A program made the position numbers and the translations under genes. A model generated the notes under the pieces. The model was given only the letters and a program-made list of their open reading frames with translations. It had not been told where the DNA came from and ran no database searches. From NCBI GenBank assembly GCA_001687465.1, contig LVLI01001229.1, positions 34,692 to 98,691 of the forward strand: DNA of 64,000 nt, in the 5' to 3' direction. Positions 7,095 through 64,000 of this stretch are shown here, piece after piece (within the stretch, counting starts at the first letter, position 1; each line of letters begins with the position of its first letter). The stretch comes from Halocafeteria seosinensis. Taxonomy: Eukaryota > Sar > Bigyra > Bicosoecida.

Positions 7095-7215
7095 TGCGTC
7101 AGCGTCGCTTGGCTGGTGCAAGTTGCTTCTGAAGGTCCCACAAAACTGGAGAGTGGAGGATTCGAATCGTTGGGTGGCTCAGCTATCACGAAGAGAAAAA
7201 AAAAATAATTTGAAA

Positions 7216-9279
7216 ATGAAGCCAAAGGAACGGAGGATGTTGTACTGTACTATCAGCGTTTTTAACAAGCTCTCGGAGCGGCAGCGCCGACAAAAGATGT
7301 CTATTTACAGAATGGTAGTGACCGTACTGATATTGGGTTTCATGGCTTTGGTTCAGAATGCTCCAAGAAAAGAAGAGACTCAAGAAGGCGATTTCTTCCG
7401 TCGTGACGGCAATGCTGATTGGAGAAAGGCAATGATTGCAGAGTCATTCCAGGATAATTTCCCAGAACCACCAGACTCTCGGTATACAAATTCTTCTGAT
7501 GCGACGCCATGTTGGAACGCTTCCTTGTACTGGTTGTTTGCGATGCCTCTAGTACTTCGGTCACAGACGTCGCTATCCACGACTATTACAGTAGCTATGC
7601 TGTTCATACTGCTGAATGCAACTTCCAGGAACGCAGTTCCGGAAACTGACCTGCGAGACGCGATAACTGCGGGCAATCAATCATGCTTTCTGTACAGCCA
7701 CCAATCTGGTCTGTTCCAGTTGGCTTGCCACGTGAACTGGCTTGACTTCGGCTATGACAACAACACCTACATATCGCTGCGATCCGCCGAGACGTTTGAA
7801 GGAAACGACTACACAATTGACCTCCATGGAATAGACCAGTTCTCCGGTATGTTTGTTTCTGACCTTCAGGAGCATGCATACCCTATGAATAGTATACCAG
7901 TCATTCGTAATCTGCACATGAAGCGAGGCAGTACAAGTTATATGGGTGGTTTCGTGGTCCGTTCGAATCAACGGTACATACGAGTGCACTCTTGTAGTTC
8001 TTCAGGTGAAACTCGCGGAGGCACGACTTCAGAGGGTTTAGAGTTCGGTGGAGGCGGTATTTGTGGAGCTCGCTGCGGAGAGGAGGGGCAAGTAGAGATA
8101 GTTGGTTGCTGGTCCAGCGGGAACATTGTCGGTATTCGTGCAGGTGGTATAGCAGGGCATCATGTTGGGGGCAACTTTGGTGTCGTCAACATATCGCATT
8201 GCAGTTCCAGCGGGCGAGTAGAGGCAGATCAGGGAGGAGGTCTTGTTGGTAGATTTGCAGGTCATGACAACGGAGAGGTCTACATTTTTCAGTCGTACTC
8301 CACAGGCGATATCACTGGATGGCGGTGCGGAGGTATTGCAGGGAGTCAAGCAGGTTCTCGTTCTGCACTTGTGTCCGTGTCGCAGTGCTTTTCGGTAGGT
8401 AATATCGAAGGAAGTGACGCAGGTGGTCTTCTTGGAGGCGCTGCTGGTTGGGAGGGTACTGTCAGAGTGATAGATTCTTATTCACGCGGAGTAATTAAAG
8501 AATCGGGAGAAACTGGAGGCATTTGCGGATTCCATGCTGGGGCTGATGGAGGCGGTGTGTTTGTTGAGAATTGTTATGCTTCAGGAAGTGTTGAGAATCC
8601 TAGCCACAATGGAGGCTTGCTAGGTAGCATCGATGCTAACCCGGGGAAAGTCGAAATTGTGTACTGTGTTTTCTCATCTGGTAAAGATTCGGGGGCCAGC
8701 ATGATCGGACGTAACCAAGGGGCAGTGAGTGCAAGTTTAGGCAATTCAGCAAACCTGAATGACATTCAAGGGAGGCTCTATTTTTTTAACGGCTCAAGAA
8801 GGTGGTCGACTGATCATTGGAGCATCGGGAAAGCTAGTGAGCCCGAGATACTTTCGCAATCGTCTAGCCAGGATTTACCCATACTTCGTTTTCAGCTTCC
8901 GTCTGCCAGTCCAACAGTTACTAGCACTCCGACTGGTTCTAGTGAGTCGACGGAATCACCCACAGCTTCGTCGTCAATCTCAGCATCTTCCGAATGGACA
9001 GCGTCACCCACAACTTCCCCGTCTAGCTCAGTCTCTTCGGATCGGACAACATCACCCACGCATTCACCTTCTGGCTCAGCATCAGCAAGGAGCGCTTCTC
9101 CTCCAATTGAGTCTCGACAGCATACGCTGAACCCAGAGCATACGGTTTCATCGGCGCCTTCCCGGTTTCGTAGTGCACAATCGCCCAACTATAGCTCGAA
9201 TTTGCACGGGTCACAATTCTCTCGTAAGAAACCATTACAGGTACAGCGGGGACAGCGTGCCATCCAAGCAGACCAGTGA
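7216..9279 (+). CDS. Gene A: GLUG-module protein with S/T/P tail, no C-terminal receptor part
   Basis: The frame is open from 7123, but its first codon is TTG, so I take the first ATG at 7216; ATGs at 7297 and 7543 are alternatives. Each alternative precedes a hydrophobic signal-like stretch: MSIYRMVVTVLILGFMAL at 7297, and TTITVAMLFILLNA after 7543, just before the first module. One GLUG module follows, about 7647-8905. It has a D-L-R...C start cap, at least seven coils of the type GGIxGxxAG...CxSxGxI, the GGICGARCG pair, and the end cap RRWSTDHWS...LPILRFQL. GLUG repeats are known from surface and secreted proteins and are expected to fold as a beta-helix. The rest is a Ser/Thr/Pro tail of about 125 residues and a stop where homologues continue into mod2, REJ or the transmembrane part. 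It may be a secreted short form or a truncated copy. Confidence 0.65.
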   Translation: MKPKERRMLYCTISVFNKLSERQRRQKMSIYRMVVTVLILGFMALVQNAPRKEETQEGDFFRRDGNADWRKAMIAESFQDNFPEPPDSRYTNSSDATPCWNASLYWLFAMPLVLRSQTSLSTTITVAMLFILLNATSRNAVPETDLRDAITAGNQSCFLYSHQSGLFQLACHVNWLDFGYDNNTYISLRSAETFEGNDYTIDLHGIDQFSGMFVSDLQEHAYPMNSIPVIRNLHMKRGSTSYMGGFVVRSNQRYIRVHSCSSSGETRGGTTSEGLEFGGGGICGARCGEEGQVEIVGCWSSGNIVGIRAGGIAGHHVGGNFGVVNISHCSSSGRVEADQGGGLVGRFAGHDNGEVYIFQSYSTGDITGWRCGGIAGSQAGSRSALVSVSQCFSVGNIEGSDAGGLLGGAAGWEGTVRVIDSYSRGVIKESGETGGICGFHAGADGGGVFVENCYASGSVENPSHNGGLLGSIDANPGKVEIVYCVFSSGKDSGASMIGRNQGAVSASLGNSANLNDIQGRLYFFNGSRRWSTDHWSIGKASEPEILSQSSSQDLPILRFQLPSASPTVTSTPTGSSESTESPTASSSISASSEWTASPTTSPSSSVSSDRTTSPTHSPSGSASARSASPPIESRQHTLNPEHTVSSAPSRFRSAQSPNYSSNLHGSQFSRKKPLQVQRGQRAIQADQ

Positions 9280-10717
9280 ACGGCTCTTAAAAACTGCATA
9301 CTATTGCGATAAGTATATAGAAAATGTACAACTAGAGTTGGGTTGAATGTTACCATACATCGCCGGACCGTGCTTCCAGAGTTGAAGTGTTCCAGACGCA
9401 CAAACCTACAGATAATAGTTACGAAGCTCGTATATATCATTGCTAGGGGAATTTACTTACTGCATAACATATGAATCCTCGATTATCCTCGAAATCGGTT
9501 GTTTATAAATTTCGCTTCCTCCAGCTCCGGGTATCATTTTGATGAATTGCAGCCTTGCGAGAAATGGAGTTGTGGGCGTTCGCATGGGAGTTGCCGGCTA
9601 GTTGTGGAACAAACGATACATCATTATAATGTTCCACCTATGTGCATAACGTAGTATACGATCTTACCTGCCTGTATTCCCACTAGATTGTTTAATACAA
9701 TGCTGGTGTACCTCGTTCGCAGCTGCACTGCAGCAGCTTCCCCATACACCTAGGGTACGCAAATTGAATATCGCTCGCTTCACATGCCTGGCAAGAACGG
9801 GATCGCAGAAAGTATGTGATGTCGCACTTCGGATCTATGCTACAGCGGACGACAGCATATCAGGCTGCATCCACGGTCCTCGACACGTCATTGCCTGGAC
9901 TTCGAATTTTCGAGGCAAACCAGCAACAAATAACCAATCCACACATAATCCTCAACCCGCTGGGAGGGGTGTATTTGCACTCAATATAGCTATGAGAATG
10001 TGTCCCTTTCTCATAATCCCCTTATTCACTTCGCTACAACACCGTACGACTTCCGGGGTTATTCTCCAGCAAAACCATTCCCCCGATTCCCTCGGCGACT
10101 CGTCCGTAGGGGTATACGAGCTACTCTTGTATACGGCCGGGTTGACTTACTGCGAGTTTCCCTTTGCTCCGAATGTGATGCTAACTTTCTAATCTGTTGG
10201 AATTGGGAAAAGCCTCGCACACTCACGATATCCTCAGTCTCCCCCTACGGGTCCCGAAGCGTTTTTGTTCCCCGACTGAAACCCTTCGTAAATTCTTCAA
10301 CCGGATTCCATAACCTGTTGGAACAACTCAAACCAGGACGTCCCGGCACTTGGTGCGTTGTAATATTTACTGTGTACGCGAATTGTTAAGGCGTTTCAGT
10401 ACATTACAGGGCATTTTCGGGGCCATTGTTCATGGACTGCACAGGAACTCGTCTTACGGGTCGTGTTTGATTGCATAGCACCAAGAGATTGTGTGGGACG
10501 TGTCGGCGGGAAGTCTCTCGACATTCGCCATCGCTATTCTCTACTGAGGCCATAAGAAAGTTGCCCTCTCCAGAAATCTTCGTCTCTGTACTTTGTAGGA
10601 ATTCTGCGTTGGGAGACTACTGTTAGTTGATATATCCGTCATAAACGTAAACCTATTCCTAAGAGCCGGTCGGGAAGGAGTTTCTTTCGGTTCCGGTCCG
10701 TGCAAGGTTTCCAGATT
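9280..10717. other. Intergenic A-B, homologous to the spacer before gene C
   Basis: No recognisable gene. A 142-codon frame at 9764-10192 (+) has no ATG-proximal signal or known domain and lies within sequence that aligns to the non-coding 5' flank of gene C: 9715-9737 matches 17132-17155 (TTCGCAxCTGCACTGCAGCA), and 9848-9951 resembles 17257-17360. The region is best read as a duplicated 5' flank carrying the promoter of gene B. Confidence 0.45.
10261..10304 (+). promoter_or_regulatory. Conserved 44-nt upstream element, gene B
   Basis: This 44-nt block aligns without gaps to copies at 17547-17590 and 24012-24055. Shared landmarks are TTTTT at positions 2-6, CCC at 10-12, CCC at 22-24, ATTC at 32-35 and AA at 39-40. 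It lies 457 nt upstream of the ATG at 10718. Function is not known; it may be a promoter element or simply residual homology from gene duplication. Confidence 0.4.
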
Positions 10718-13700
10718 ATGACGGGGGAAACTGAAAACCGAGACAGGAATAGCTGTCAGCTGCGAACGGTGTCTGCAGCAAGTCCCGAATCCAGGCATTT
10801 TGGCGTTGGACTGGCAGACAGGCGCACTCGTGGACCTACAGCCTTTTCTCCATACCGCCAACTTACTCCAGGTAATCAACAAGGGGCAAGGGTGCTACAC
10901 TTCATCGCACACGTCGGTACCTTTTGCCTCGTAGTTGTATTTCTAAGAGCGAGCAGAGTAACTGCTGTATCCCTGAGATCGGACGTATTGGATGGTGCAG
11001 AACTTTGCATCGAATATAACTCATCAGAATACCGTTTCGAGCAACTGTGCGATATCCCATGGGAAAGTCGTGGATATCAGCAAGACGACTATATTGAATT
11101 GCATACCTCGGAAGTGTTTGATGGCCGCAATCATGTGGTAGACCTATCTGGCATGACTGACTTCGAGGGCATTTTTCGCGTTAATAATGTCAATAGTTAT
11201 GAGGAAGCTCCCCTAATTGAAAACGTCGACACCATCAATGGCAAGACCACAACGGATGGTGGATTCATCCTGCAGACACGGCAACAGTTCTTTCGAGTTC
11301 ACAACTGTAGCTCAGCGGGAGAAATCGGAGGGGAAAAGAGCGGTGGAATTGCCGGCGCGTTTCCTGGCGAGAACAATGGCAAAGCAATCATCGATAACTG
11401 CCGCAGTACGGGCGACATTACAAACATCGGCGCTGGTGGTATCGTGGGGAAACGCGCGGGCCACTCAGGAGGCGTCGCCAATGTTACCAGATGCTCTTCA
11501 TCGGGAGACTTTGTTGCCGACGGGCGTTGGTCTGGTGGTATTGCTGGTGCGGAGGTAGGAATGGGCGGACTTGCTGAAATTCACTTTTGCTTTTCTACAG
11601 GAGACAGCGTGGTGAACGCAATAGGCGGAATCTGCGGTGGTGCTGCTGGGGAAGGCGATGGTTCTGTCTATGTGACACATTGCCATTCCACAGGACAGCT
11701 TGGCGGAAAAGGAAACGGTGGTATTGTAGGAAGTGGGGCCGGAATGGAAGGTGCTTACGTCTACGTATCTCAATGTTTCTCTCGAGGGAACATTAGTGGA
11801 ACTGAGAGTGGAGGTATAGCTGGTAGTGATGCCGCTGAGGCCGGTTTCGCTGGAGACAGTTTGTTGGAAATACATGATTCGTATTCTACAGGTACGGTAG
11901 GTTCACAGAGCACCGAATCAGGGGGTATCTGTGGGTCCACTGCAGGAGAAGGAGGGGGTACTGTGCGCATCAGAAATGTATATATGCTCTCCAGTCCTCC
12001 ACAAGGAAGAGCATACATGATTGGGAGTATACACGCAGATGCAAACGAAATAGAAATCAGTTATTCGGTGCATAATGACAGCCTAGATTTGGGTCTCGTA
12101 GAGGTTAATTCCGGTGACAGTAACACATTCAAACATCAAGGGAATTCGGGTAAACTGGTTGACATACAAGGCCAACTATATCATTCTAATGGAACCCGGA
12201 TCTGGTCGACTGAACTATGGAGTATTTCCAAGGCAGATCCGGATAACTATCCAAAACTACGATTCCAAATTACCGGCAACAGCATCGGTGAGCCACGCAC
12301 CTACGGGTCTACTCCCACTCCAAGTCCAACTCCTAGCGTCACGTCTACCGTCACTCCGACACCAACGAGCGTGACCAATGCCACGCAATTCCTTATTGAC
12401 ACTCTTGATACATTGGAGGAGGGTTATGACTTCGCGGTGAACGATGAAACTACAACAGAGGATTTCATTGGTTTTTTGCCCCGTATTGCTGGATCCAGCG
12501 CGCTGACGACTTCTGTGGGAGAACGCGTGTTGGATTTACTTAGCCGTGTGTTGGCAAATAACTTTGACAAAGACACTGATCAATTCCGGTACAGTGATAG
12601 CCTCGCAAGTAAAGCTGTTACAGTGGTATCGCTAGTACTTTTTAATGACATAGAGAAGAAAGCGTCTCATTTTGCCTCGGCGGAATTAGCATTGCAACTC
12701 ACGTCTCGGTCCCAACTGGTCGCTCGAGTTGCTGGCTCGCCTACAAAGAGCGCAAGCACGTTGTTCAATGAGCTTTCTACCTTCTGTAACCAGACATTCT
12801 TTGGCATCGTATTTGGCCGACGTATTGCCAGTTCTGGGGATATCGAAATTAGCCCTGCTGGGAGCGAACACGGAATTGGGATAAGTGCTGTGGAGTTCGA
12901 GGATTGTGACCAAACTCCAACGTTTACAACCAGCTTAGACAGGACGAAACCCTCAATTTCGCGTGGGAATGTGCAAACTCCTTTATTTAGCAATGTGGAA
13001 GAGGCGGACGTTGTGGCTGAAGAATACGTATATCCACCCGCCCCCGTATTTCAAGGGCCAGCGATCGAAGCTGCCGCAGCAGATTCAAATATAGCTCAAC
13101 ATCTTGTCTCTTTACTTGATGAGCACATCAAATCTATATTGCCCAATGGCGACGTATTCAGAAACGGAAGTAGTGGTATCAGCCTGAAAGAAAGCCAGGG
13201 GCTCCCCAGGAATCGTCGGCAACTGCCCGATGAGGTGATTGGCCCAATAGAGACTCACAAACTGCCCCGTCAGATTGCATCAAAAACGCTGCGCGTTTCA
13301 GGGTTTGCGACAGGTCTTAACGAACCACAAGCCCTTGACATCGCCAGCCCCGTCAACATAACGCTGGCGCTCTATCCGGAGCTAGATCCGATCTCTTTGA
13401 CTAGCGCTCCCGAGGTCACGAGGCTATCGTCTGGCGAAATGAACCTCTTATCTCGTACTGGAACTTGCCCAAAGAGTTCTAAAGGGAACTCATCGTCCTT
13501 CACCATAGAGTGTACGGATCTCCTTTCTGGTAATTCTAAGGACATCACGATTGAATGCGATCCTCAGCAAGCGGGAGCTAGCGTTGAGGTCTTTTGCTCG
13601 CAGTCAGTTATAATCCCGGTCCTGTTGCACTCACCGAATGCTTCCTCATATTGGAGCGATGATAGTATAACAACGGGTAGCATGCAATTTGACGGTCGAA

Positions 13701-16186
13701 AAATTGCAGGAGAAACAAAAGATTTAGGAGCGTTTTCTTCCAGTTTGCTGACAGTGGAAACATTGACAATGGGGAAACTTCTTACCCCCTCCCCATTCCC
13801 AACATCTACGCCCACTGCGACGGCGACACACACCACCACGGGAACTCCAAGTGTAACCCCCACACCGTTTAGTACGACCAGTACCCCATCAACAACACCG
13901 AGCAAGTCTATGGGTGCATTTCCTAGCAGTACCCGTACAGCGACTGTGACACCAAGCAACATCTCAGCGCCTACCATCGTGGATGGTCCCCGAATGGACT
14001 CACTGGAATCCTTCATGACTATTTCATTTGATGTAGCGACGAATCGCGGTGGGAAGGACGTAGTGTTTGATTGCCTGGATTTGCTTTACTCGGAGCTCGG
14101 GAGGAAGGCTGCAGTGTTCAGTGAATGCTATTGGGCCAGTGATACAGAGCTATACATAGAACTACAGTCGCCCGAGTTGACTCGCCAGGAGTTTGGTAAA
14201 TCGATCACCGTAGGAAGCAAAATAACGCTTATTGGGGGATTGATTCAACGCCAGGAACCATCCGCGGCCCATCCGTGGGCAAATTTAACTGTTGCTCCCA
14301 GCGAGTCGCTCCCCTCAGTAGACTTTGACGTCTCGTACTCAGAGATACTTAATATATGTGAAGACTTGGAGGTTAGAGTCACGTATGCTCTTGGAGATAG
14401 CCGCTCCACAGACATTCTTTGGACATGGATGCTACAATCTGTGGTTACTAAGATTGGAACTGATATTACTACTTCCGATACTACGGCGGAGATACGTTCT
14501 GCAGTGGATTCGGCAAATGCTGGGAACCGTGATTCCATCTTCGTCGGGAAACTGGGTTTGCCAAAGGAAGTGACGGTTAGGTTACTTTTAAGAGGGGAAA
14601 ATGTGTACGGAAGCTTCAAAGAAAAGAACATTAGGATAGGAATTGAGGGACAGTATGCTCCTTCAATAGAATTCCATGAAGAGCCTGGAGGCTCCATCGA
14701 GAGTGCTGAAGAGGCAGTGTTCCGATTATCCTCATCACTGAAGGCATGTGTGCTCTCCAATGTGGGCGACCCATCAGATTTCACCTTTAGTTATCAGTGG
14801 TCCGTATTCAATCCTGTTGCAGAGAAATTGGATATTTCGGCATTCTCAACTCCCGATCCTCGGAGGTTGGTCATCCCTGCATCATCTCTTCTTCCGTTCG
14901 TCGATCCGTATTTTATTTTTGTGAATGTAACTGCGGAGTCTCATCAGCGGCGACTAGCAGGCTCTAGAGCCATGACTCTGACCGTGTCACCCAGTTCTGT
15001 GGTTGCCTCTATAGAAGGGGGTAGTCGCGCTGCCGACGTAGCCTCAAAACTGGTGCTAAATGCCGTCAACAGTAGGAGTCCAGACGAAGAGTTGAAGAAT
15101 CTTCCATCTAGTTGGGTATTTGGGAAGCGACTCTCGTGGAAGTGCGAGACAAAGGGCATTAACTGCACTGACTTCCTCATCAATGCTGAGTCCACCAAGG
15201 TCGGACAAACACTGGAAATCCAACCAGACAATCTGCAAAATTTAAAAGCTCAAATTAGCCCAGATCGAGAGCTTCCAGTGCATTTCACTGTGTCGGTCAG
15301 CCTGGACCTGGATCGTGGAGCTAGTTCTATCTTTCACTCAGAAGACTCCAAGACTGTTACTATTACTCTGTTGGAGGCAGTAGTACCCACTGTCTTTTCT
15401 GAGAACTTCCACCCTAGCGAGGCAGAAAGAACCACTGTAGGGGATCACTCGTATTTCACAATCAACCCTGGATCAGAAGTGTGGATAAAGGCTCGCATAA
15501 ACGAGTCTTCGGATACGACTGGCCGGTGGACACTTGTGGACGAGGATGCCTTGTCGTTAGATAGTATAATCGACACGCCCAGTGTTTCATCCAAGCAGTT
15601 GGTTATACGGCCAAATCAGCTGTTTCAGGCGAACCAATATCTTTTCCAGTATCGCAGTCAATTTGGGAATGGTTTCGACGACGATTGGGCTTCCGGATTT
15701 GCCGCATTTCGGGTGAAAGTGAATCAACCACCACGAGGAGGCCGGTTACTGATTAGTCCTTCTCCTTCAAGAGGGATTGTTGGCGATGTGGACGAAGTCC
15801 AGCTCATGGCTCGGGAATGGAAAGATAAGGATACTCCATTGCTCTATTCGTTTAGCGTGGGTTCTAGTGGGACCTTTATTCACAGTAAAACGCTTCGCTC
15901 TGCGAAGGAGCATCCAGAGATATCCTCCACCCTTCCTACTCCTCGCCGTGGCCACTCACTGTGGATATTTTTGGAGGTTCAAGACTCTTTAGGAGCTTCG
16001 GAGGTTTATTCGCGTCAGATTTCCATTAACCGCCCATCAACCACCCAACTCGAAGAGGCTGTTGAAAGAAACCGGAAGAAAACGCGTGAATGCAGGAAGA
16101 GGAAGGATGCAAATTGCGCCGCTCGCGCTGCCCGAGAAGCAATGCGTGCAAAAAACCAGGATCTATTCATGCGGAGCTTTGATTGA
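10718..16186 (+). CDS. Gene B: GLUG - mod2 (GAIN-like) - REJ protein
   Basis: An intron-free frame of 1822 codons starts at ATG 10718 (the frame opens at a GTG at 10700). Residues about 57-82 form a hydrophobic stretch (VGTFCLVVVFL) that could be a late signal peptide or a type II anchor. Then come one GLUG module (about 83-518), an S/T/P linker, mod2 (about 553-1021), a second linker, and a REJ region (about 1083-1768). The REJ call rests on IEGGSR...LVLNA, the WKC/NCTDF cysteines, repeated YxFxxR strands, and NQPPRGGRLLISPSPSRG followed by WKDKDTPLLYSFS, which match the polycystin/sea-urchin REJ pattern. It ends in a short basic tail. No transmembrane bundle follows, so the protein is probably secreted or held by its N-terminus. 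Mod2 contains a furin-type RNRR site near 13208. The REJ half is a close paralogue of gene C. Confidence 0.75.
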   Translation: MTGETENRDRNSCQLRTVSAASPESRHFGVGLADRRTRGPTAFSPYRQLTPGNQQGARVLHFIAHVGTFCLVVVFLRASRVTAVSLRSDVLDGAELCIEYNSSEYRFEQLCDIPWESRGYQQDDYIELHTSEVFDGRNHVVDLSGMTDFEGIFRVNNVNSYEEAPLIENVDTINGKTTTDGGFILQTRQQFFRVHNCSSAGEIGGEKSGGIAGAFPGENNGKAIIDNCRSTGDITNIGAGGIVGKRAGHSGGVANVTRCSSSGDFVADGRWSGGIAGAEVGMGGLAEIHFCFSTGDSVVNAIGGICGGAAGEGDGSVYVTHCHSTGQLGGKGNGGIVGSGAGMEGAYVYVSQCFSRGNISGTESGGIAGSDAAEAGFAGDSLLEIHDSYSTGTVGSQSTESGGICGSTAGEGGGTVRIRNVYMLSSPPQGRAYMIGSIHADANEIEISYSVHNDSLDLGLVEVNSGDSNTFKHQGNSGKLVDIQGQLYHSNGTRIWSTELWSISKADPDNYPKLRFQITGNSIGEPRTYGSTPTPSPTPSVTSTVTPTPTSVTNATQFLIDTLDTLEEGYDFAVNDETTTEDFIGFLPRIAGSSALTTSVGERVLDLLSRVLANNFDKDTDQFRYSDSLASKAVTVVSLVLFNDIEKKASHFASAELALQLTSRSQLVARVAGSPTKSASTLFNELSTFCNQTFFGIVFGRRIASSGDIEISPAGSEHGIGISAVEFEDCDQTPTFTTSLDRTKPSISRGNVQTPLFSNVEEADVVAEEYVYPPAPVFQGPAIEAAAADSNIAQHLVSLLDEHIKSILPNGDVFRNGSSGISLKESQGLPRNRRQLPDEVIGPIETHKLPRQIASKTLRVSGFATGLNEPQALDIASPVNITLALYPELDPISLTSAPEVTRLSSGEMNLLSRTGTCPKSSKGNSSSFTIECTDLLSGNSKDITIECDPQQAGASVEVFCSQSVIIPVLLHSPNASSYWSDDSITTGSMQFDGRKIAGETKDLGAFSSSLLTVETLTMGKLLTPSPFPTSTPTATATHTTTGTPSVTPTPFSTTSTPSTTPSKSMGAFPSSTRTATVTPSNISAPTIVDGPRMDSLESFMTISFDVATNRGGKDVVFDCLDLLYSELGRKAAVFSECYWASDTELYIELQSPELTRQEFGKSITVGSKITLIGGLIQRQEPSAAHPWANLTVAPSESLPSVDFDVSYSEILNICEDLEVRVTYALGDSRSTDILWTWMLQSVVTKIGTDITTSDTTAEIRSAVDSANAGNRDSIFVGKLGLPKEVTVRLLLRGENVYGSFKEKNIRIGIEGQYAPSIEFHEEPGGSIESAEEAVFRLSSSLKACVLSNVGDPSDFTFSYQWSVFNPVAEKLDISAFSTPDPRRLVIPASSLLPFVDPYFIFVNVTAESHQRRLAGSRAMTLTVSPSSVVASIEGGSRAADVASKLVLNAVNSRSPDEELKNLPSSWVFGKRLSWKCETKGINCTDFLINAESTKVGQTLEIQPDNLQNLKAQISPDRELPVHFTVSVSLDLDRGASSIFHSEDSKTVTITLLEAVVPTVFSENFHPSEAERTTVGDHSYFTINPGSEVWIKARINESSDTTGRWTLVDEDALSLDSIIDTPSVSSKQLVIRPNQLFQANQYLFQYRSQFGNGFDDDWASGFAAFRVKVNQPPRGGRLLISPSPSRGIVGDVDEVQLMAREWKDKDTPLLYSFSVGSSGTFIHSKTLRSAKEHPEISSTLPTPRRGHSLWIFLEVQDSLGASEVYSRQISINRPSTTQLEEAVERNRKKTRECRKRKDANCAARAAREAMRAKNQDLFMRSFD

Positions 16187-23364: not shown

Positions 23365-23901
23365 GTAGTGTTCCAGAGACATACCCGGCGGAATTGATAG
23401 TTGCCTTGTCTATTACACATAAACCTAGTGTGTGTTAACAGTTAACTCGTATGGCTATGGCTAGGGGTTGTGGGCTGCAAGCAAACGAGGTGTATCCTTG
23501 CCAGCAAATAAGCACTAAGTAGCTCTTTCCAATTCACCTAACAAAATGCACAATTAGAATGTTGGGAATACAGCAGTGCAATGTGTACTTGAAGGATAAT
23601 ATTGGTGCGTGACACTACATGCGGTGACTCCCTGTGAGTCAGGGGCTTGCGACTTCCACCGTGTACAATGGGACTACGCCTCTTCCACCATGCTCCGGTG
23701 AGAGCGAATTTATTATGTACATGCATTTCTAGTGACTCATACTTTGTGTATACTGCAGAAGTTTGTAGTGGGCGTTCTTCCGTGGAACAACAAGGGGTCT
23801 GGGTGTCTTACAGGTCGTGCGAAACCTTCGCAACCGTCTTTTTGATTCAAACGTTGCTTTATATTCATTCTCGAGTCCCGTCTGGTCGCTGAAAGGCACT
23901 A

Positions 23902-23940
23902 TGAGTGTCTCCTTGGAACTGTGAGTGTCTCCTTGGACAG
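23902..23940. repeat. Two-copy 20-nt direct repeat
   Basis: TGAGTGTCTCCTTGGAAC is repeated immediately as TGAGTGTCTCCTTGGACA with a 20-nt period. It lies in the 5' flank of gene D. No function can be assigned. Confidence 0.6.
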
Positions 23941-24011
23941 TTTGTCGCCTTGGTTATGATGGCTTGTCAGCTCTTCTTGGTTCCTGGGGGGATAATTCCC
24001 CCTCCGTAAGC

Positions 24012-24055
24012 ATTTTTACTCCCTCCGGAACGCCCCATTCCGATTCTTCAACCGT
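24012..24055 (+). promoter_or_regulatory. Conserved 44-nt upstream element, gene D
   Basis: Ungapped match to the blocks upstream of B and C, starting ATTTTTACTCCCTC and ending ATTCTTCAACCG. It lies 526 nt before the ATG at 24538. Confidence 0.4.
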
Positions 24056-54107: not shown

Positions 54108-55998
54108 TCTCGACAACTTGAACGTTGACGTAATAGTACGCGGAAGCGAAGCCGGGAAGCGAGAACCATTAAAAGAGCTGAACTCCCGATCCACTGTCCT
54201 TCTTCGTGAGGGTATACCGGCTTTAATTCTACATGCGAACGTGTTGGGGCTGTGGAAGAGACAAACATCTCATACAGTAATTACGAGCAGCCTGACGAAC
54301 TCAGCCGAGGCACTTACTTTTTCAGTTCCCCTGAGCTTACGGATCCTCTCATTCTCCTGCATCAACCGAAAGCGGTCGATAATCACGCTATTTATTCACA
54401 AATGAATACAGAAATGGGCGTATATCCATCCCCACTTACAAATACTGTGGGCGTGAGCTTCCAAAAGCGGCCGTTACCACGTACCGATTCCTCGGCCCTA
54501 ATTTGTTCCGTCAAAAAAACAATTGCAGTGCTTGAGACCGCACACTTTACATGGAGCCCTCGATGGCAATTGCGCGTCAAAAGATGGTTCAGAAAGGCAA
54601 TGAAATGCAATATTTCAACGCTCGCGGAGTTGAGGAAGCCGTCGTGCGACCTGTGCTTTTTGTAACAAGGCAAGCGATATCAACAAAAATACACGACATA
54701 TACATCCTCCAAAGAGCTCCTTCTATTCAAAAACATATAATGTACCCTGTATCAACAACCCTGTTCAGTCGTCAAGCTGTAAATACCCTCTACGCTGCTT
54801 CCGAGGTTTGCGACCTCCCCACTTCCAAACAAAAAAAAAAGTGGAACGAAACCATGCACAGACCGGCTCTTTCCACTCCCGTCTACGGCGCCGCATACTT
54901 GGTGCAAACAGCCACAAACGCCCAACTGAAAGCTGCAGCCTCGCCAGCGAGCGCAGCGGCAGCAGCCATAGACTGCTGCTTAACGGTAACGGCAAGTGCG
55001 ACGATAACTGCCAATCCGGATCAATCAATCATTCAATTCATCAAGATTTGGAGCTATACCAAAGCCCCGTAATGCGGTGGTGGTGGTGGTAGACGCTAAA
55101 TACAAAGGACCAGCACTAGTCCTGGTAGACCCGCTGTCTACGTTTGTTCCAGGAGAGTCTTGGACTTACTTTGAGCGTCACGCGAGATGCAAGTACACCG
55201 AGTGTACGTGTACACGGGCCTGGAAGGAATGCGACTTCCTTTTCCAACAGAATGCAGAGAGCTCTTACTACAAAGAGAAGCACAGGGGGAATTGAATATC
55301 CCCACTTGTGTATTGCTCGCCAAAGGTTGGGGGTAACAATACTGGTACATCATAAAATCAACTTCGAGCCTTTTGCCGAAGACGCTCCAGCCGACTTCAA
55401 CCGGGAGACAGCAGAAACAGATATTAACAGAAACCAAGCAATCACGTCTCGTAAAAATTGACCAAGGAACGAATCCGCCTCCCCTTAGTTCATCGCCCGG
55501 GGATGCTTGGAAGGGGGAGAAGTACATTGCGCAAGGAGCGGCGTTTGTCCTACAGAGAGGACCTACACCCCGCCTCGGTAGGTTTTACTGCAGCGCAGCA
55601 GGGAGTGGTGTCCAGACAATAACTTCCACTGCACGACATTGTTTGCCAATGCGGATGACGCACTGCAAGGACAGTCACTGTGCAACCGCACAGTCTCGGT
55701 GTCTTGTCTACTCTACAGTATGCTATATTCAATAGTCTGTTTCATTCAGGGTGCGGGTAGTATTTTTTTGGGGGCGAATTGATTGGATTGGTACAAACGG
55801 ACTACCGCTTCACTGCTGGAAGGACATATTGCTGCTCTAGCTACAGTTGGATACAGGTCTGGAGTCAAAGCATACCAGTTTCTCCATCACGTGCATCCGG
55901 TTTCGCCTGCCCGGCTGGGAGGCACTGTTACATGTGTACATGTACTCACGGTTGCTTCTTCGCACTCTCGTCGGCAGGTAAATATAGATGCTGAACAC
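54108..55998. other. Intergenic between gene E (5') and gene F (3')
   Basis: This should contain the promoter of E and the 3' flank of F. A 173-codon ATG-started frame at 54551-55072 (+) has an alanine-rich end and no recognisable domain; I do not call it. I did not find a convincing copy of the 44-nt element on the minus strand here. Confidence 0.35.
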
Positions 55999-58900
55999 TT
56001 ATTCATCACCGGATTCGATTACGATATCCTCCTCAATTCCATTTCCCGATTCACTACTTTGTAGATGCTCCGCTTGAACGGGACGTGATTTCCATGGGCA
56101 CCACTTGCTTCTACCTTCGCGAGGCGCCTTGGGTTGGTTTCTCTTGGCTTCAATGAGTGCTTTGGCTTTGCTGAGGGCGGTCTTCAAAGCTACAGAGAAG
56201 ATCATAAGAAACCCTGCGAATATGCTCAGAATCATAAGAACCTGAAGAAATAAGACGACGTAGTCAACAGCTTCTGCTTCGTCCGGGTCGTCCTGAATTT
56301 CATGACGTAGAAGTCCAAGGGCTGCTGTTACAGTGACGCAGATTGATTTTCCCATTTCCAACTTATTGAGTGGGGATATCAACTTATAAGGTCGCATGAT
56401 AGATCCCAGTTGCAGAAACGATAGCAGGACAGCCATAACTAATATTACCTGTTGGAAGGGATCTGTCACCAGGAAAGCTAGAACAAGGAGGATCGATTTC
56501 CTTAGAATTTCGACAGCTGGCCACAAGTATCCTCGATTCCGAATCCGATAACCCGAAGTGATGCGAAGGAAGTCCTTTTTAAGGAATGCTGTATCTGCAG
56601 TCTTGTGCCGGTAGCTGAGGTAAAAAACCAGGAACATTGGGAAACCTAGGACAACGGAAGCAAACGAGAAGCCCGCGAGCACTCTTAGGGAATTATAACC
56701 AGAATCCTCAGTGGTGACACTGAAGTCGGCCCGGAGCCTTTTGTCGCCAAAGATTTCATAGGGGTAGACGTTCAAGATGTTTATCACAGTTAATGTGACT
56801 GCTGTGTGAACTTGACCTAGTAGTATTGCAATGGGCTGCAAAGAAGATTTGAAAATATGCCCACAAGCCACACGTTGTCCCGGCTTTGCAATATGGATCA
56901 CCGTCTGTAACACTAGGGACGCAAGGACCACTAACCAGGGGGAGAGAAGGGAACTGACCGCCATTCTAATAAAACTAAACTTCGATACACAGCTGAAAGC
57001 ATCCGGCTGAGTAGGGTCCATTAAGAAGAGACGACTAAACTCCCTGTACCAAGCAGCATCTCCGGAGAAAGCGGTATATTGTAGTTGTCCCAGAATTGAA
57101 CAAATTTGCATGTAATCGAGTCCAAATAATACAACTAGCTGTAGATAGTTAATTGGGTCCATTGCCCCTTTAGCTGCGATGGATTCTGCAGATACTTCAT
57201 CATGATATACCTGCCGAAGCTCTTCTACGTCGATGCTCCCATCGACGCTACTCTTCTCACCGGGAACTTGCATGGCGACAGCGTCATCAGAGGGAGAGCT
57301 CTCAATTTGCTCATCTGTGTGTTTTTCTCCTTCAGCCGGAATTGAGTCCTTATTCTCTCTGTCTTGTCTCACCATCATAGGAGTATAAGCTATTTTCTCC
57401 GGTTTACTCTTTTTGTTATCATTCTTAGCTTTGCTCCTGGTATCGTCAGAGATGCTACTAGACGTCTTGGTTTCTTGCACTTCTTGTTCGCTGGGAAGTC
57501 CCGCGTCTACCTCTCTTGTATCCCTATGCGGTCGGACGGGTTGGTTGATTTCCTCCTCATCCTCCGCCTTCCTTTCGCTTCGCTCTGCTACTGGTGAAGC
57601 AGCAGAGGTTCTCCCCCCTTGCTCATCGTCGGAAGGCTCTTCTTTCCCCCCACTTTGACCCGCCTCATCAGCGTCATCAGCATCTGCGGTTACATCAGAA
57701 GCTTTGTTTGCACCTTGTGAGTCATTCTCGCTTTGTTCACTGGCGGCTTTGTCCTTCTTGCATAGTTTCACCATTGAGTTATGAATATTAAGTGCTAAGA
57801 CGACTGTAAAAGCAACTGTGACCCAGGCAGCAACAGTTACTTTGTTGCGGGTCATATCCTCGCAAGCCAAACATTCAAGTTCAGTTTTTGCGAAACCCTC
57901 TCGGCATCCGTCACACAATGCACCTGTTCGACCGCCAGAGCAACGAGTCTTGAAATGAGTCTCATTTACAATGCAAGCCGACTGCGGACTACACTCGTGC
58001 ATTCTAACTTGCTTGTCATTCCTCAACCTACCAACGATGTACTCCTGTGCTGTTTCATTCTTCTCAAGGAGAGGACTGTCGGCTGCGCAAGCTTCGCACC
58101 AAAATCCGTCCTCCATCAACAGCCTTCCTTTGCTGCAAAGGAACCCCTCCTGCGGACACGGAATGCAGATCGCGCTGCCTTCTAAAGAAAATTCGTTTGA
58201 GGGGCAACCATCGCAAAAGAGTTCGTTTGATGCGTGGTCAAGGAAGCTTCCGGCCGGACAAGGAACACAAACATGAACCCCGTTTTCTCCATCACTTCTG
58301 AATTGCCTGAAATGACCCTCTTGACAGAGGCATAGAGAACCACTCTCGTTTGGCACCTCGTTCTTTGCACAGCGCACTGTCTCCGTTTGAATCACCACGG
58401 GAGGTGTTTCAACTGGAGTGCCATCCAGTGTTACATGTACGGCTGCTGATCCCTGCTGTCTAAAGGTTATGAAAAAAGCAAAGCCCCCAGTTTCGTCTCC
58501 AGCAGCAAGCCTCAAGGGATACGTTCGTTGAATTGACGAATCAGGAATATCTCCTACGGGCTCTACCGTAATCGCTAATGACGGCAGTTCACCTCCAATC
58601 ACTTTGGTGTCTTCTTGAGAGAAGATACCCCTTGCTGGACTATTACCAAATACGTCCATCAGCACCACCTGTAGTTTAATGCGCTGGTTCACAAAGCCGG
58701 CGTTTGAGAGAGCCTGAACCTTAGAGAGAGCCGGAATGGCAGGGCCGGCGAGGAATGATACTGACACGGAGAGAGTTCTGGTGTCTCGGGAGTTTTTGAA
58801 TAGCGGATTGACTAGCCACTGTCTAAGCGTTAATATAGACATTGAGTATCGCAATACAAGTCTGAACTTGAAGGGGTTAATTGACAAAGCACCCGCGTTC

Positions 58901-61900
58901 ATCGTCAGAACGTTTTTGGAGTATCCCACTAGGAGTTGAAAGCCCCGGCGACTGTCCGCATTTACAGATGCTGAGGCTGGAGAAAACTGAAGTCCTTCCC
59001 CGAAATGTCTCACGTTATCCCTCACTACAGACCTTAAATTCCTTGTGATAGTATTGTTTTTCCTATTATTTTCGTCTAACGGTTCAAGAAGTACGGTAAA
59101 GTCTGTAGGTAGTAGAAACACGGGTTCAGAGTCCACGTTGATCACGTCCCACTGCACAATCTGTTCCTCAAACGGGCTTAAGGATACGTTGACCATTCTT
59201 TCGGGGCATACAAAAACCGACGTAACAAGTAGGTTCAGCTGGACCCATGCATGGACCCCTGTACTGTTCAAACGCTCGATAGACGGGGGCTCCTCAGGAA
59301 GTTCCTGGGATACTCCTTGACGTGAGTCCGTTTCAACAAGCAACCAAGCCGTAAACTGTCCCGAACTCTCAACGTTGTTTGCCACTATTTCGATGATAGC
59401 AATTGTTTGCTGATCTCCAGAAATAGAAGTGCGGCCTGTGACAGGGAATGTTCGTCCCGCTCCTCTTACCCAGAAAGAAGACGCTGCCGCCCCAGAAACT
59501 TCAGTGCCTTCTTCCGTGAACAAGCGGACCCTCCAGCTTACCGGATAGTCTCCATCGTTAATCAACAAAATATTTCGACTTTGTGGCGCATCTGCAAAGC
59601 TCATTTGCACGAATATGGAATCCTGTGAAAGTTCAATACTCCCTTCGCGGATGCGGAGAGATACGGATATCCGTAGCACTTTAGAAACCTCGACGTCAAT
59701 ATCAGACACTGTTACTTCAATAACGGAATCCAGGATACCATGAGACGCTTGCTCTATATCAAACCCAATCGTAAACTCTATCGATACTGGAGAGCTACCA
59801 GATTGACCCTTCGAAGGCAGGATAGCAATGGTCTCAAGCTCACTAGGGACACTCCACGCATATTGCTGATTGGCCTCCAAACTCAAGAGTGCTGAACGAT
59901 AGACAACATGGTGACCATCTGTTGGGATCCCCGTCCTGCCTTCGTCAATTAGGAATTCTTTAGGTTGCAAAGATACGTCGAATGGAGTGGACGTAACTAT
60001 CTCTGTAATGTCCACAGACATTGATTGATACGCTGATGTAATGGTTTCACCTTCAACAGAAGCAGGAAACTCCATAGGGATCGCCAACTGCGGTATGTCG
60101 TTTAACTGGCGCGATCCATCAGTCACCCTTCCTCGAATTAAAGGAATTTGCGCTTTGAAAAATTCCGATGCATTGGGATGGAAAAACAACTGTACCTCGT
60201 AGGTCAATAACCGACATGAGCTAGAGGCCCGCGCTGCTTGACTGCAGGAAGTGTTCGATACCAACACGAGCTCTTGGATAATGGGGAGCGGCAGGTCCAA
60301 ACTGGTCCCTTTGAACTGGGCTTGGCACCCCGAGTAAATTACCTCATTACGACCGTCCACTGTGGGCGTGAAGTCACAACCAATAGCAACGGAGGCTGGT
60401 TCGCTGTTCCCGCTTTGTACGGAGAACTTAACACCGACCCCAATGAGTGTACTATTTGAGCTACTAACGCCAAACTGAGATGATTCAAACTGTTTGTAGA
60501 GAGCCGTGATACAATTGAAAGGGTTATTTTCCCCGCAAGAAGACGTGACCACCTCACCCTTGGTTGCATTGATAAAAATATTAGAGGGTGTGATCGTCGG
60601 TGTGAAGCTTGGGGTTCGAGTGGGCGTGACTCTAGCGGTCCGTGAGGTGGATGAGGTTGCAGATGGGGTGCTCGTCTCCTTTGGGGTTGTCGTGACAGTC
60701 TTCCGGGGAGTCGTTGTGACTGTCTCTGTTCTGGTTGCGGTGGCTGCAGCAGTTGAGGAGCTACTGGGAGTCGTTGTAGCGACGGCGGTCGGAGCGCTTG
60801 TTCCTGATACAGAGTTTGAGGGTGTTATGGTGACTGAAGCAGTGGGGGACCCTGTGGACGATCCACTGGAAGTGGCGCTTGGGGTCCGACTTCGCGTTCC
60901 TGTTCTTGAGGTAGAAGCCGAAGAAGACAATGTAGACCTGGCACTAGAGGATGAAGTTACTGTTGTAGCTGGTTGAGATATCGTTGCGGTAGAGCTTGCT
61001 CTTGCTGTTGCCGTTGCAGTGTGGCTTGCAATCATGGGAACTAGTGTCTCTGATACCGAGCTCGCTGGAATGGCAGTAACTGTAGAGGTGCTACTCGGCG
61101 AGGCAGCAGTGGTTTCTGTTGGTGTCATCGTGACTATCGGGGTCTGAGTACGTGTCCTAGACACAGTACTTGATGGTGTTGTCGTACCTAACGGGGTGGC
61201 GGACAGGGTAGCGCTGCTTGTCAGCGATCCACTGGCAGTTGCAGTATCTGATACCGTACGTGATGGCGTGGTAGTGCCTGACGGAGTTGCAGACAGGGTA
61301 GATCTGGGGGTAAGTGATGCGCTGTCGGACGCTGATACCGAGGTCGAGGATGTTGTCGTACGTGACGGCGTGATAGACGGAGTTGCACTAGCAGTTGGTG
61401 AAACACTTGCATCGGGGAAAGATGACTGTGAGACCTGAAATTTTAGAACTGGTAGACTGGTGGCATCAATGACTGTCCATACATCATTCGACCACTGCCG
61501 GGTTCCATTATACTGATAAAGTTGACCACGAATACTATCCAAATTATCTGACACGCCAACAAGGAGCGTAATACTTTCTCCGCCCACTCCACTAATATTT
61601 GCCGGCATGGACTGCAGATCTGGTGCAATGCTATTGTACACAGAGTACCGGATTTCCAGTGCATCAATCTCAGAGCCAACGCTCCCAAGTATTCCACCAC
61701 TATTATGCGGGTGTTCCACGTGACCTCCCGCGTAAACGTTTTCGACGAAGACTGATCCGTCGGTCACCTCAGCACCAAATATGCCTCCACTTGACGAGCC
61801 GGCGATAGTACCCCTGGAATAGCTGTCCAGGACATCCACTGTTCCGAACTGCCGAGCTGTACCGGCGCCGAAAATTCCTCCACTCGATTCTCCATTAATG

Positions 61901-64000
61901 TCGCCAAGGGAGTAACACTCTACAACTAGGGCTCTGCCTGATTCGGTTGCTGCAGACTCCCCAAATATGCCCCCCGCTCTTGCTCCCGCAATACCTCCTG
62001 TACCAAATGATCTGATGATCCGCACAGTTCCGCCAAACGATCCAGCCTCCATTCCGCATATCCCTCCTGCGGATTGCCCAGTAACTAGTCCAGTTGAGGA
62101 GCAACCATCGATTACCACCATTCCCGCCTGTCCTCCACCTATTCCTCTTCCGCCGATCCCACCTGCAGCATCGCCAATCACATTACCATGGGAGGAAGAA
62201 TTCACGATCTGAATCGGGCCTGTAATTCCACAGTCCGAACCACAAATTCCACCACCCTCGGCGGTAACGTTCCCCGAAGAGCTGCATCGCTGAACTTTGA
62301 AATATGATTGTCCCGACTGGATAATGAAGCCTCCTCGGTTACTCGTATTTCCTCCAACCATGTGGAGATCTCGAACCGTCACAGCCTGACTGGCCAATTG
62401 GATTTCACTGCTATCGATGCGAACCAATCCGTCGAATTCGCCAACGTCCCGTAGGTAAATGGTGTTGTTTCCACCATCAAATAATTCATTGGCTCGTAAA
62501 GTAATGAATGCACTGTTGAGGTAAGCCATAGACCAAATAATATCACACGACATGTCAAACCTGCCCAACGCAGCAGTGTATGCTATGCAGGGTTCACCAT
62601 TCTCGAGGAAAAATTGTCGTAAATCCCCTCCCAATAACATGTTATCGTTCGGGAAGAGCTGGAAACGTAGAAGGGGAAAATTGTTGGTCCCGTCAAGAGC
62701 CCAGACCTCACTACTCCATCGCTGGATCCCATCGAAGTGGTACAACTGTCCACGGATAAGTTCTACATCGTTCGATATTCCATCCATGAAACTAATGCTC
62801 TCTTCGCCTATCCCAGCTATCTTCACAGGATCACTCGTGGTTTGCCCGGAGGGCTCTCCATTATAAACGGAAAAGACAATTCGAATGAGCTCTACAACAG
62901 ATCCTATTGATCCAAAGATACCTCCGCTGAATAATGGATCCAGAACGATACCGCTGGCATATACGTTTTCCACAACAACAGTACCTGAATCAGCTACTTC
63001 CGACCCAAAAATTCCTCCACAGGCGAAGTTATTTATTCCACCTGTTGAGTAACTGTCGCGGATGTACACTTGTCCGTTGAAACTGCCTGCGCCAGATCCA
63101 ACAATTCCTCCACTAGACTCACCATCTATATTCCCGGAGGAGTAGCATTCGGATATGTTGACGATCCCTCCACTGGATCCAGCGGATGCACCCACTATAC
63201 CTCCAGTATACATATTATCTATCACTCCAAAAGAATATGATCTTTCGACTACTACTCTTCCGGCAGACGCTCCAGCTTCGAACCCGCATATCCCCCCGGC
63301 TGATTGGCCCAAAATGTCCCCGGTAGAGAAACAATCTACAATCTTTGCTTGCCCAAAGACGTGTTTGCCGAGCTCGCTTCCCGCAATTCCCCCAGCACCA
63401 ACCCCTATGACGCCTCCATAGGACCAAGAGTTGCGAATTTCAACCAATCCATTGTTCCCGCACTTTCGCCCACAAATACCGCCACTGTCGGTCGCCATGG
63501 TCCCCGAAGAACTGCACCGTTCTACAACAAAATATGATTGACCCGACTGAACAATGAACCCCCCTCCACTACTAGTACTTCCATTTTTCACATGTACATC
63601 GCGAACAAGGACCGTGTCACTCTCAGAAATTACTTCAGCTTCATTCACACGAACCAAGCCATCGAAATCGACGATTTCGGACAGATCAATTATATGCCCC
63701 CGTCCGTCAAGTATTTCGTGAGGTCGTAACGTAATGAACGCAGTACTATTGTATTGCCGGGACCAAATAATATCGCACGTCATCTCAAAAGTTAGGGAAG
63801 CAGCACTGTACTGAATACACGGCTCTTGGCCTTCAAGGATGAACTCACGAATGTCACCACCACGGATTGGGAGTCCGTCTTTTGGATCGTCAAACATTTG
63901 GAAACGTAAGATTGGAAAGTTAGAGGTTCCGTTAAGAATCCAGATGCTATCAGCCCAACGTTGAATACCATTATAGTGGTAGAGCTGGCCACGGATAAGC
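55999..64000 (-). CDS. Gene F: receptor-like protein (GLUG x3 or more, mod3, Cys-rich, ~9 TM), 5' end outside window
   Basis: The frame is open across the right edge; the apparent start at 63897 lies inside a module junction. At the edge is the end cap of one GLUG module (IRGQLYHYNGIQRW), followed by two full modules (about 63860-62630 and 62625-61430), a long S/T/P linker (61425-60590), mod3 (60585-58385), the Cys-rich stalk (58380-57855, with CVPCPAGS and DGFWCEACA) and about nine hydrophobic segments down to 56200. It differs from D and E in the cytoplasm. The loop between the first and second membrane segments is about 200 residues, highly charged and Asp/Glu/Ser/Lys-rich (57780-57160), against 50-60 in D and E. 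The C-terminal tail is only about 60 residues, with no RRxS cluster. At the D/E furin-like position it reads DGSRQLND, so the dibasic site is lost. Confidence 0.75.
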   Translation of the reverse strand, partial: LIRGQLYHYNGIQRWADSIWILNGTSNFPILRFQMFDDPKDGLPIRGGDIREFILEGQEPCIQYSAASLTFEMTCDIIWSRQYNSTAFITLRPHEILDGRGHIIDLSEIVDFDGLVRVNEAEVISESDTVLVRDVHVKNGSTSSGGGFIVQSGQSYFVVERCSSSGTMATDSGGICGRKCGNNGLVEIRNSWSYGGVIGVGAGGIAGSELGKHVFGQAKIVDCFSTGDILGQSAGGICGFEAGASAGRVVVERSYSFGVIDNMYTGGIVGASAGSSGGIVNISECYSSGNIDGESSGGIVGSGAGSFNGQVYIRDSYSTGGINNFACGGIFGSEVADSGTVVVENVYASGIVLDPLFSGGIFGSIGSVVELIRIVFSVYNGEPSGQTTSDPVKIAGIGEESISFMDGISNDVELIRGQLYHFDGIQRWSSEVWALDGTNNFPLLRFQLFPNDNMLLGGDLRQFFLENGEPCIAYTAALGRFDMSCDIIWSMAYLNSAFITLRANELFDGGNNTIYLRDVGEFDGLVRIDSSEIQLASQAVTVRDLHMVGGNTSNRGGFIIQSGQSYFKVQRCSSSGNVTAEGGGICGSDCGITGPIQIVNSSSHGNVIGDAAGGIGGRGIGGGQAGMVVIDGCSSTGLVTGQSAGGICGMEAGSFGGTVRIIRSFGTGGIAGARAGGIFGESAATESGRALVVECYSLGDINGESSGGIFGAGTARQFGTVDVLDSYSRGTIAGSSSGGIFGAEVTDGSVFVENVYAGGHVEHPHNSGGILGSVGSEIDALEIRYSVYNSIAPDLQSMPANISGVGGESITLLVGVSDNLDSIRGQLYQYNGTRQWSNDVWTVIDATSLPVLKFQVSQSSFPDASVSPTASATPSITPSRTTTSSTSVSASDSASLTPRSTLSATPSGTTTPSRTVSDTATASGSLTSSATLSATPLGTTTPSSTVSRTRTQTPIVTMTPTETTAASPSSTSTVTAIPASSVSETLVPMIASHTATATARASSTATISQPATTVTSSSSARSTLSSSASTSRTGTRSRTPSATSSGSSTGSPTASVTITPSNSVSGTSAPTAVATTTPSSSSTAAATATRTETVTTTPRKTVTTTPKETSTPSATSSTSRTARVTPTRTPSFTPTITPSNIFINATKGEVVTSSCGENNPFNCITALYKQFESSQFGVSSSNSTLIGVGVKFSVQSGNSEPASVAIGCDFTPTVDGRNEVIYSGCQAQFKGTSLDLPLPIIQELVLVSNTSCSQAARASSSCRLLTYEVQLFFHPNASEFFKAQIPLIRGRVTDGSRQLNDIPQLAIPMEFPASVEGETITSAYQSMSVDITEIVTSTPFDVSLQPKEFLIDEGRTGIPTDGHHVVYRSALLSLEANQQYAWSVPSELETIAILPSKGQSGSSPVSIEFTIGFDIEQASHGILDSVIEVTVSDIDVEVSKVLRISVSLRIREGSIELSQDSIFVQMSFADAPQSRNILLINDGDYPVSWRVRLFTEEGTEVSGAAASSFWVRGAGRTFPVTGRTSISGDQQTIAIIEIVANNVESSGQFTAWLLVETDSRQGVSQELPEEPPSIERLNSTGVHAWVQLNLLVTSVFVCPERMVNVSLSPFEEQIVQWDVINVDSEPVFLLPTDFTVLLEPLDENNRKNNTITRNLRSVVRDNVRHFGEGLQFSPASASVNADSRRGFQLLVGYSKNVLTMNAGALSINPFKFRLVLRYSMSILTLRQWLVNPLFKNSRDTRTLSVSVSFLAGPAIPALSKVQALSNAGFVNQRIKLQVVLMDVFGNSPARGIFSQEDTKVIGGELPSLAITVEPVGDIPDSSIQRTYPLRLAAGDETGGFAFFITFRQQGSAAVHVTLDGTPVETPPVVIQTETVRCAKNEVPNESGSLCLCQEGHFRQFRSDGENGVHVCVPCPAGSFLDHASNELFCDGCPSNEFSLEGSAICIPCPQEGFLCSKGRLLMEDGFWCEACAADSPLLEKNETAQEYIVGRLRNDKQVRMHECSPQSACIVNETHFKTRCSGGRTGALCDGCREGFAKTELECLACEDMTRNKVTVAAWVTVAFTVVLALNIHNSMVKLCKKDKAASEQSENDSQGANKASDVTADADDADEAGQSGGKEEPSDDEQGGRTSAASPVAERSERKAEDEEEINQPVRPHRDTREVDAGLPSEQEVQETKTSSSISDDTRSKAKNDNKKSKPEKIAYTPMMVRQDRENKDSIPAEGEKHTDEQIESSPSDDAVAMQVPGEKSSVDGSIDVEELRQVYHDEVSAESIAAKGAMDPINYLQLVVLFGLDYMQICSILGQLQYTAFSGDAAWYREFSRLFLMDPTQPDAFSCVSKFSFIRMAVSSLLSPWLVVLASLVLQTVIHIAKPGQRVACGHIFKSSLQPIAILLGQVHTAVTLTVINILNVYPYEIFGDKRLRADFSVTTEDSGYNSLRVLAGFSFASVVLGFPMFLVFYLSYRHKTADTAFLKKDFLRITSGYRIRNRGYLWPAVEILRKSILLVLAFLVTDPFQQVILVMAVLLSFLQLGSIMRPYKLISPLNKLEMGKSICVTVTAALGLLRHEIQDDPDEAEAVDYVVLFLQVLMILSIFAGFLMIFSVALKTALSKAKALIEAKRNQPKAPREGRSKWCPWKSRPVQAEHLQSSESGNGIEEDIVIESGDE
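60590..61425 (-). repeat. Ser/Thr/Pro linker of gene F
   Basis: About 275 residues of low-complexity Ser/Thr/Pro/Ala sequence with irregular 8-10-residue periodicity (for example TTTPSRTVS and SATLSATPxGT). It separates the GLUG array from mod3. The frame on the opposite strand is also largely open, which is a composition effect. Confidence 0.7.

Follow-up and report, generated by a model that had tools for sequence, protein, structure and literature searches.

The window analysed here is the final 64 kb of a contig of 98,691 bases (C515), the end of which is also the end of the window, in an assembly of 30.6 Mb in 605 contigs. As the initial annotation had proposed, it contains six giant modular genes (A to F) whose modules vary in order and number; they are uninterrupted open reading frames (ORFs) of 718 to 4990 residues. 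Module mapping also agrees that forms with a membrane bundle (D, E and F) lie beside forms without one (A, B and C). The features, in window coordinates, are as follows.

7123-9279, plus strand: gene A, an uninterrupted ORF of 718 aa
7648-8895, plus strand: GLUG-like module of gene A, followed by a Ser/Thr/Pro tail, with no transmembrane (TM) bundle (module mapping)
10700-16186, plus strand: gene B, an uninterrupted ORF of 1828 aa
From 10967, plus strand: GLUG-like module of gene B, then a GAIN-like module (12371-13762) and the pre-REJ plus REJ region (13952-16099)
17992-23364, plus strand: gene C, an uninterrupted ORF of 1790 aa
18679-19794 and 20005-21135, plus strand: GLUG-like modules of gene C, then the pre-REJ plus REJ region (21142-23280)
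24538-39510, plus strand: gene D, an uninterrupted ORF of 4990 aa
25293-27089, plus strand: Ser/Thr/Pro minisatellite opening the outer part of gene D, followed by a GAIN-like module (27250-28647) and GLUG-like modules (28813-30078 and 30184-31380)
31405-32805 and 32944-34317, plus strand: two further GAIN-like modules of gene D
34456-36669, plus strand: ectodomain of the membrane half of gene D, followed by the Cys stalk (36673-37191), TM bundle (37195-38445) and tail
41544-54194, minus strand: gene E, an uninterrupted ORF of 4216 aa
53960-46719, minus strand: six GLUG-like modules forming the outer part of gene E, then Ser/Thr/Pro
46349-44139, minus strand: ectodomain of the membrane half of gene E, followed by the Cys stalk (44138-43620), TM bundle (43619-42345) and tail
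55999-63999, minus strand: gene F, an ORF of 2666 aa, open at its start and cut by the contig end
63864-62650 and 62634-61417, minus strand: GLUG-like modules (at least two) in the outer part of gene F, then Ser/Thr/Pro
60585-58381, minus strand: ectodomain of the membrane half of gene F, followed by the Cys stalk (58380-57862) and the TM bundle with an acidic loop, down to 56140

The G+C content of the window stays between 45 and 52% in 2-kb steps, and neither an Rfam match nor a tRNA was found in it. To the left of the giant genes, on the minus strand at 585-4789, are two adjacent cytochrome P450 genes split into short exon-like frames, and Pfam p450 recognises each of the six pieces scanned, with best E values of 7.9e-18 and 1.9e-16. 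As these genes come in exon-like pieces, introns do exist in this genome, though each giant gene is one long open frame. A leucine-rich-repeat ORF (8760-9998 of stretch L039, which adjoins the window on C515; LRR_8, E 1.3e-18) reaches the left edge of the window, and a 2627-aa ORF without Pfam match is its neighbour.

Fourteen GLUG-like modules are spread over all six genes (one each in A and B, two each in C, D and F, six in E). GAIN-like modules number one in B and three in D, a module search matching none in A, C, E or F; the REJ region occurs once each in B and C, and the combination of ectodomain, Cys stalk and TM bundle in D, E and F. Ser, Thr and Pro together make up 21-31% of the residues of A-F, which carry 0.8-1.3 N-glycosylation motifs per 100 residues. 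Hydropathy gives five strong, non-overlapping hydrophobic segments in the bundle of D and six in those of E and F, and by eye there are signal-like hydrophobic starts beside a Met in D, E and C. In the N-terminal part of the ORF of gene C, ahead of its likely Met, at 18232-18340, a GLUG-like head fragment with a hydrophobic start of its own can be recognised by eye, perhaps a relic of another gene. The minisatellite of gene D has repeat periods of 30 to 384 bases, and gene E contains three N bases (46568-46569 and 48182).

The pattern used to mark GLUG-like units, [GA][GA][ILMVF]xG, occurs 7, 10, 15, 20, 49 and 16 times in A to F, whereas shuffled sequences average 0.5 to 4.7. Within the modules, units of the form GG[I/L]xG ... 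C[Y/F]SxG recur about 30 residues apart and resemble the GLUG consensus; such units are shared with GLUG-motif proteins, among them bacterial adhesins and the IgA1-protease-like 3n6z. Unlike those proteins, the modules hardly match the Pfam model (PF07581, Glug), which recognises one of the 14 at E 0.71. The GLUG repeats of the initial annotation thus survive as motif-marked modules in all six genes but scarcely as profile matches, and the label, drawn from the motif and hardly from Pfam, is marginal. The solved structure 3n6z matched gene D at E 2.9e-4, a match recovered neither with a single GLUG-like module nor with a profile of all 14, and a search of prokaryote contigs with one such module found no relatives.

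The GAIN-like domain shares with the GAIN domains of adhesion GPCRs and PKD1 its position between REJ and TM, a predicted order of helices followed by strands (low-confidence model, pLDDT 43.4; the two AlphaFold models gave 43.4 and 40.2, both low), and it weakly matches P0002. Its score of 22.6 against the GPS-proximal part of P0002 exceeds the highest of 100 column shuffles (20.7), a reversed control scoring 18.1, and its match to algal PKD1-like proteins is weak (hhalign probability 0.6-0.9%). It differs from those domains in lacking any significant profile or solved-structure match: Pfam GAIN and GPS did not match it, nor did any solved structure at E up to 5. What had been annotated as a GAIN-like domain is a module of B and D, unmatched in A, C, E and F and without a GAIN profile match, and the GAIN label is unproven. 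For A-F as a whole, Pfam TRP, polycystin, GPS and GAIN were all unmatched at E up to 1.

The Cys stalk, earlier called ephrin-receptor-like and found here in D, E and F alone, matches Ephrin_rec_like in 10 of 17 aligned members of its family and NCD3G in 16 of 17 (best E 5.1e-4), but below the curated cut-off wherever a score was given. The 17-row profile matches Mst1, the mastigoneme protein of Chlamydomonas (8tx1), at E 1.6e-8, and the stalk also matches both ELAPOR1 and P0001. In all three the likeness is limited to the Cys repeats, with no GLUG-like or GAIN-like modules among the matches and no TM-bundle homology shown. When about 8000 candidates from a set of 5.8 billion proteins were scored, the 17-row Cys+TM profile matched P0001 only, again in the Cys repeats, and residues 1140-2660 of F found no homologue among the same number, which does not prove absence; IMG/VR, queried with the Cys+TM profile, held no relatives. 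Neither were the bundles recognisable as those of family C GPCRs, in which a nine-Cys domain accompanies a 7tm_3 bundle: 7tm_3 matched no member. The TRP label proposed for the bundle has to be dropped, as the bundles of E and D matched none of Pfam TRP, PKD_channel/polycystin and Ion_trans at E up to 10, and the 17 members matched no TRP, polycystin or ion-channel profile at E up to 0.1.

Genes with this membrane half are far from confined to the window. Their 87 matches in the genome cluster into no fewer than 51 loci, spread over 39 contigs, 48 of these loci besides D, E and F – a lower bound, as 61 of 111 candidates were scored. The 17 aligned members share an invariant framework of Cys, Gly and Trp, and their intracellular loops are conserved too. 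In a tree of the Cys+TM region that covers 18 of the 51 loci, D pairs with a gene on another contig, C63 (support 100/100); C525 and C580 form another pair (100/99), and E and F are placed by themselves. Since D, E and F are not one another's closest relatives among these 18 rows, the cluster does not represent a local expansion of its own, and a private tandem array is rejected for D in view of its sister C63. Some copies contain stops, which makes some of the family non-functional; decayed members with in-frame stops lie on C506 and at C22:29626-30498. One family member is adjoined by an ORF that looks, by eye, like a dynein heavy chain, and on account of this ORF we call the organism a flagellate.

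REJ, which the initial annotation had placed in the cluster at large, is restricted among the six genes to B (Pfam REJ, E 1.1e-29) and C (E 2.7e-29), with no Pfam match in A, D, E or F. Elsewhere in the genome it is widespread (15 matches on nine contigs in all). Seven loci beyond the window were read on their 3' side (C376, C267, C211, C27, C241 and two on C518; C514 and C582 were not among them), and in all seven REJ is followed in the same open frame by a GAIN-like module and one TM segment, after which come basic residues and a 34-82-residue tail. Past the mapped REJ region, the frame of B runs on for 28 codons and that of C for 27; tblastn found no GAIN-like remnant behind them, a search that a lone short TM exon could have escaped. 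Three of the nine REJ contigs (C515, C376 and C241) also hold TM-bundle loci, and on C241 a GLUG-like ORF begins shortly after the REJ gene.

The affinity of these REJ genes is with PKD1/REJ proteins. Aligned with algal PKD1-like proteins, REJ and the stretch preceding it reach an hhalign probability of 100 (E 8.1e-45, 618 columns), and B and C resemble SpREJ and the algal P0002-P0006 in this homologous region; one algal match is labelled Ochromonadaceae sp. CCMP2298. A REJ profile matched six REJ proteins among about 8000 scored candidates of the 5.8-billion-protein set. According to PMC1934368, SpREJ proteins have 1-11 TM segments together with GPS and PLAT; each of the seven REJ relatives read has one TM at its end, and B and C themselves end after REJ. 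The genes of the window also differ from PKD1/REJ proteins in having no Pfam GPS or PLAT match (GPS was unmatched in the six proteins and in nine REJ rows, seven of which include the GAIN-like part; PLAT in the six proteins) and in carrying GLUG-like modules ahead of REJ; moreover, B and C have no TM, and D, E and F no REJ.

Local duplication would account for B and C, as their appearance suggests, their REJ regions being 74.6% identical with dN/dS 0.36. This pairwise value, an average over sites, indicates purifying selection and hence constraint on both, at least before any loss. The two GLUG-like modules of C are 82.6% identical (dN/dS 0.35). Because all seven REJ relatives run on into a GAIN-like module and a TM, B and C are more readily seen as derivatives of the REJ family, truncated or secreted, than as soluble partners of D-F. 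The idea of soluble and membrane-bound isoforms is accordingly rejected: B and C belong to one family and D, E and F to another, and A is placed in neither. A single-locus reading fails as well, both families being dispersed and the closest relative of D among the 18 rows lying on another contig. The recognition locus suggested earlier from the co-location of soluble and membrane forms is not supported as a dedicated locus in which the two kinds match, TM-bundle loci lying on 39 contigs and REJ on nine; nor were single, invariant housekeeping copies seen.

On closely similar anchors, the dispersed TM-bundle genes carry differing outer arrays. Two close pairs, C525/C580 and D/C63, were compared, and in both the membrane half is mostly 75-94% identical while the outer arrays differ, with modules reordered or not found. 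Between C525 and C580, the ectodomain (87.5% identity, dS 0.235, dN/dS 0.27) and the Cys+TM region (90.0%, dS 0.23, dN/dS 0.22) evolve more slowly than the cytoplasmic tail (72.3%, dN/dS 0.54). When 120-residue windows of C525 were matched to C580, those at 3601-4801 were collinear and 80-94% identical, the three tail windows 53, 67 and 79% identical, and GLUG-like modules 2-3 gave in-order matches of 73-91%. The 15 windows from 1801 to 3481 (modules 4-7) found best matches of 51-70%, 10 of them out of order and five in order; the order kept by these five means that accelerated divergence accounts for part of the difference. Module 3 has a best-pair dS of 0.245, modules 4-7 have values of 0.77-1.13. 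Because a C580 module whose end was not recognised is missing from this dS matrix, no use can be made of the values that the matrix gives for C525 modules 1 and 2; the window comparison is free of this omission. The outermost module of C580 appears by eye to be a degraded counterpart of module 1 of C525 (70-71% identity). Misassembly of repeats could mimic module exchange.

D and C63 are 74.8% identical over D 2735-4956, from the third GAIN-like domain to the tail, and in the C63 stretch read there is no GLUG-like module, just Ser/Thr/Pro ahead of its one GAIN-like domain. In nine TM-bundle genes the outer side was read at least in part: GLUG-like modules occur in five (D, E, F, C525 and C580) and were not seen in the parts read of the other four (C63, C22, C196 and C134). 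Among the genes of the window, GLUG-like modules are more alike within genes (51.7% identity) than between them (41.2%; 1 of 5000 label permutations), E2-E5 and C1-C2 being the most alike, from which tandem duplication inside genes emerges as one source of modules. Selection, assessed by pairwise dN/dS alone (dS was saturated for seven pairs), is purifying in the pairs for which it could be computed.

Taken together, these data point, with a probability of roughly 0.55, to a large family of adhesion or recognition receptors with a constant anchor and rapidly turning-over outer modules, the window sampling two dispersed families. The first (D, E, F and the 48 further loci) has a constant membrane half made up of an ectodomain, a Cys-rich stalk, a hydrophobic bundle of several segments and a tail; in some members, GLUG-like modules, GAIN-like modules and Ser/Thr/Pro stalks are arrayed outside it. 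The second (B, C and the other REJ loci) is related to PKD1/REJ, ending elsewhere in a GAIN-like module and one TM, with B and C lacking these ends. The repeat modules may form β-helices with surface ligands, perhaps glycans, as their binding partners; the Ser/Thr/Pro stretches may be glycosylated stalks, and ligand binding would be signalled through the TM bundle, with duplication and exchange of modules renewing specificity. As to role, we infer, as the first choice, that the proteins adhere to prey or substrate or recognise them, and place mating second.

A structural glycoprotein coat, in which repeats and Ser/Thr/Pro stretches would form a thick surface layer without specific ligands, is unlikely. 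The composition and glycosylation motifs of A-F are in its favour, as are C22, C196 and C134, which in the stretch read show Ser/Thr/Pro alone upstream of the ectodomain; such members would fit a coat equally well. However, the conserved Cys stalk, TM bundle and intracellular loops exceed what a coat needs, and purifying selection acts on the modules, which are distinct. A locus for gamete or self/non-self recognition, with soluble A-C acting together with membrane-bound D-F, seems rather improbable. REJ proteins do serve gamete recognition elsewhere: sea urchin SpREJ acts in it (PMC1934368), and a male-gamete gene of Ectocarpus combines REJ and GPS with positively selected sites (PMC4700764). 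These precedents keep a role in mating alive for B and C and are silent on D-F. The sharing of three contigs by the two families also speaks for such a locus; against it stand the dispersal of both, the nearest tree relative of D outside the cluster, the lack in B and C of ends present in all seven relatives read, which does not make them soluble versions of D-F, and the purifying selection on their REJ regions. Polycystin- or TRP-like mechanosensory channels with large ectodomains are very improbable, despite several hydrophobic segments behind a huge ectodomain and a related REJ family in the same, presumably flagellate, genome, because the bundles match no TRP, polycystin or ion-channel profile, D, E and F have no REJ, and a comparison of the bundle with the TM part of P0001 gives an unremarkable score, one that 13 of 60 shuffles also attain.

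In the open-licence literature, we found no publication in which GLUG and REJ domains occur together, or REJ and GAIN domains in protists; among the matches listed there for GLUG domains and eukaryotes, none concerned such a gene family, and the GLUG-motif publications found are, by title, about archaea. What is new here is a putative receptor family, large and dispersed, in which the anchor is fixed and the outer modules are mobile. Should the receptor reading be true, a protist would have built a modular recognition repertoire from seldom-combined parts – GLUG-like repeats, REJ and Cys-rich multi-TM receptors – and, with outer domains turning over on a fixed anchor, surface recognition would become testable gene by gene. 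More tentatively, at somewhat less than even odds, the genes may represent an undescribed protist receptor superfamily in which one anchor has repeatedly been refitted with GLUG-like and GAIN-like arrays, giving a fast-evolving repertoire of dozens of giant receptors, with a logic like that of variable surface-receptor repertoires elsewhere.
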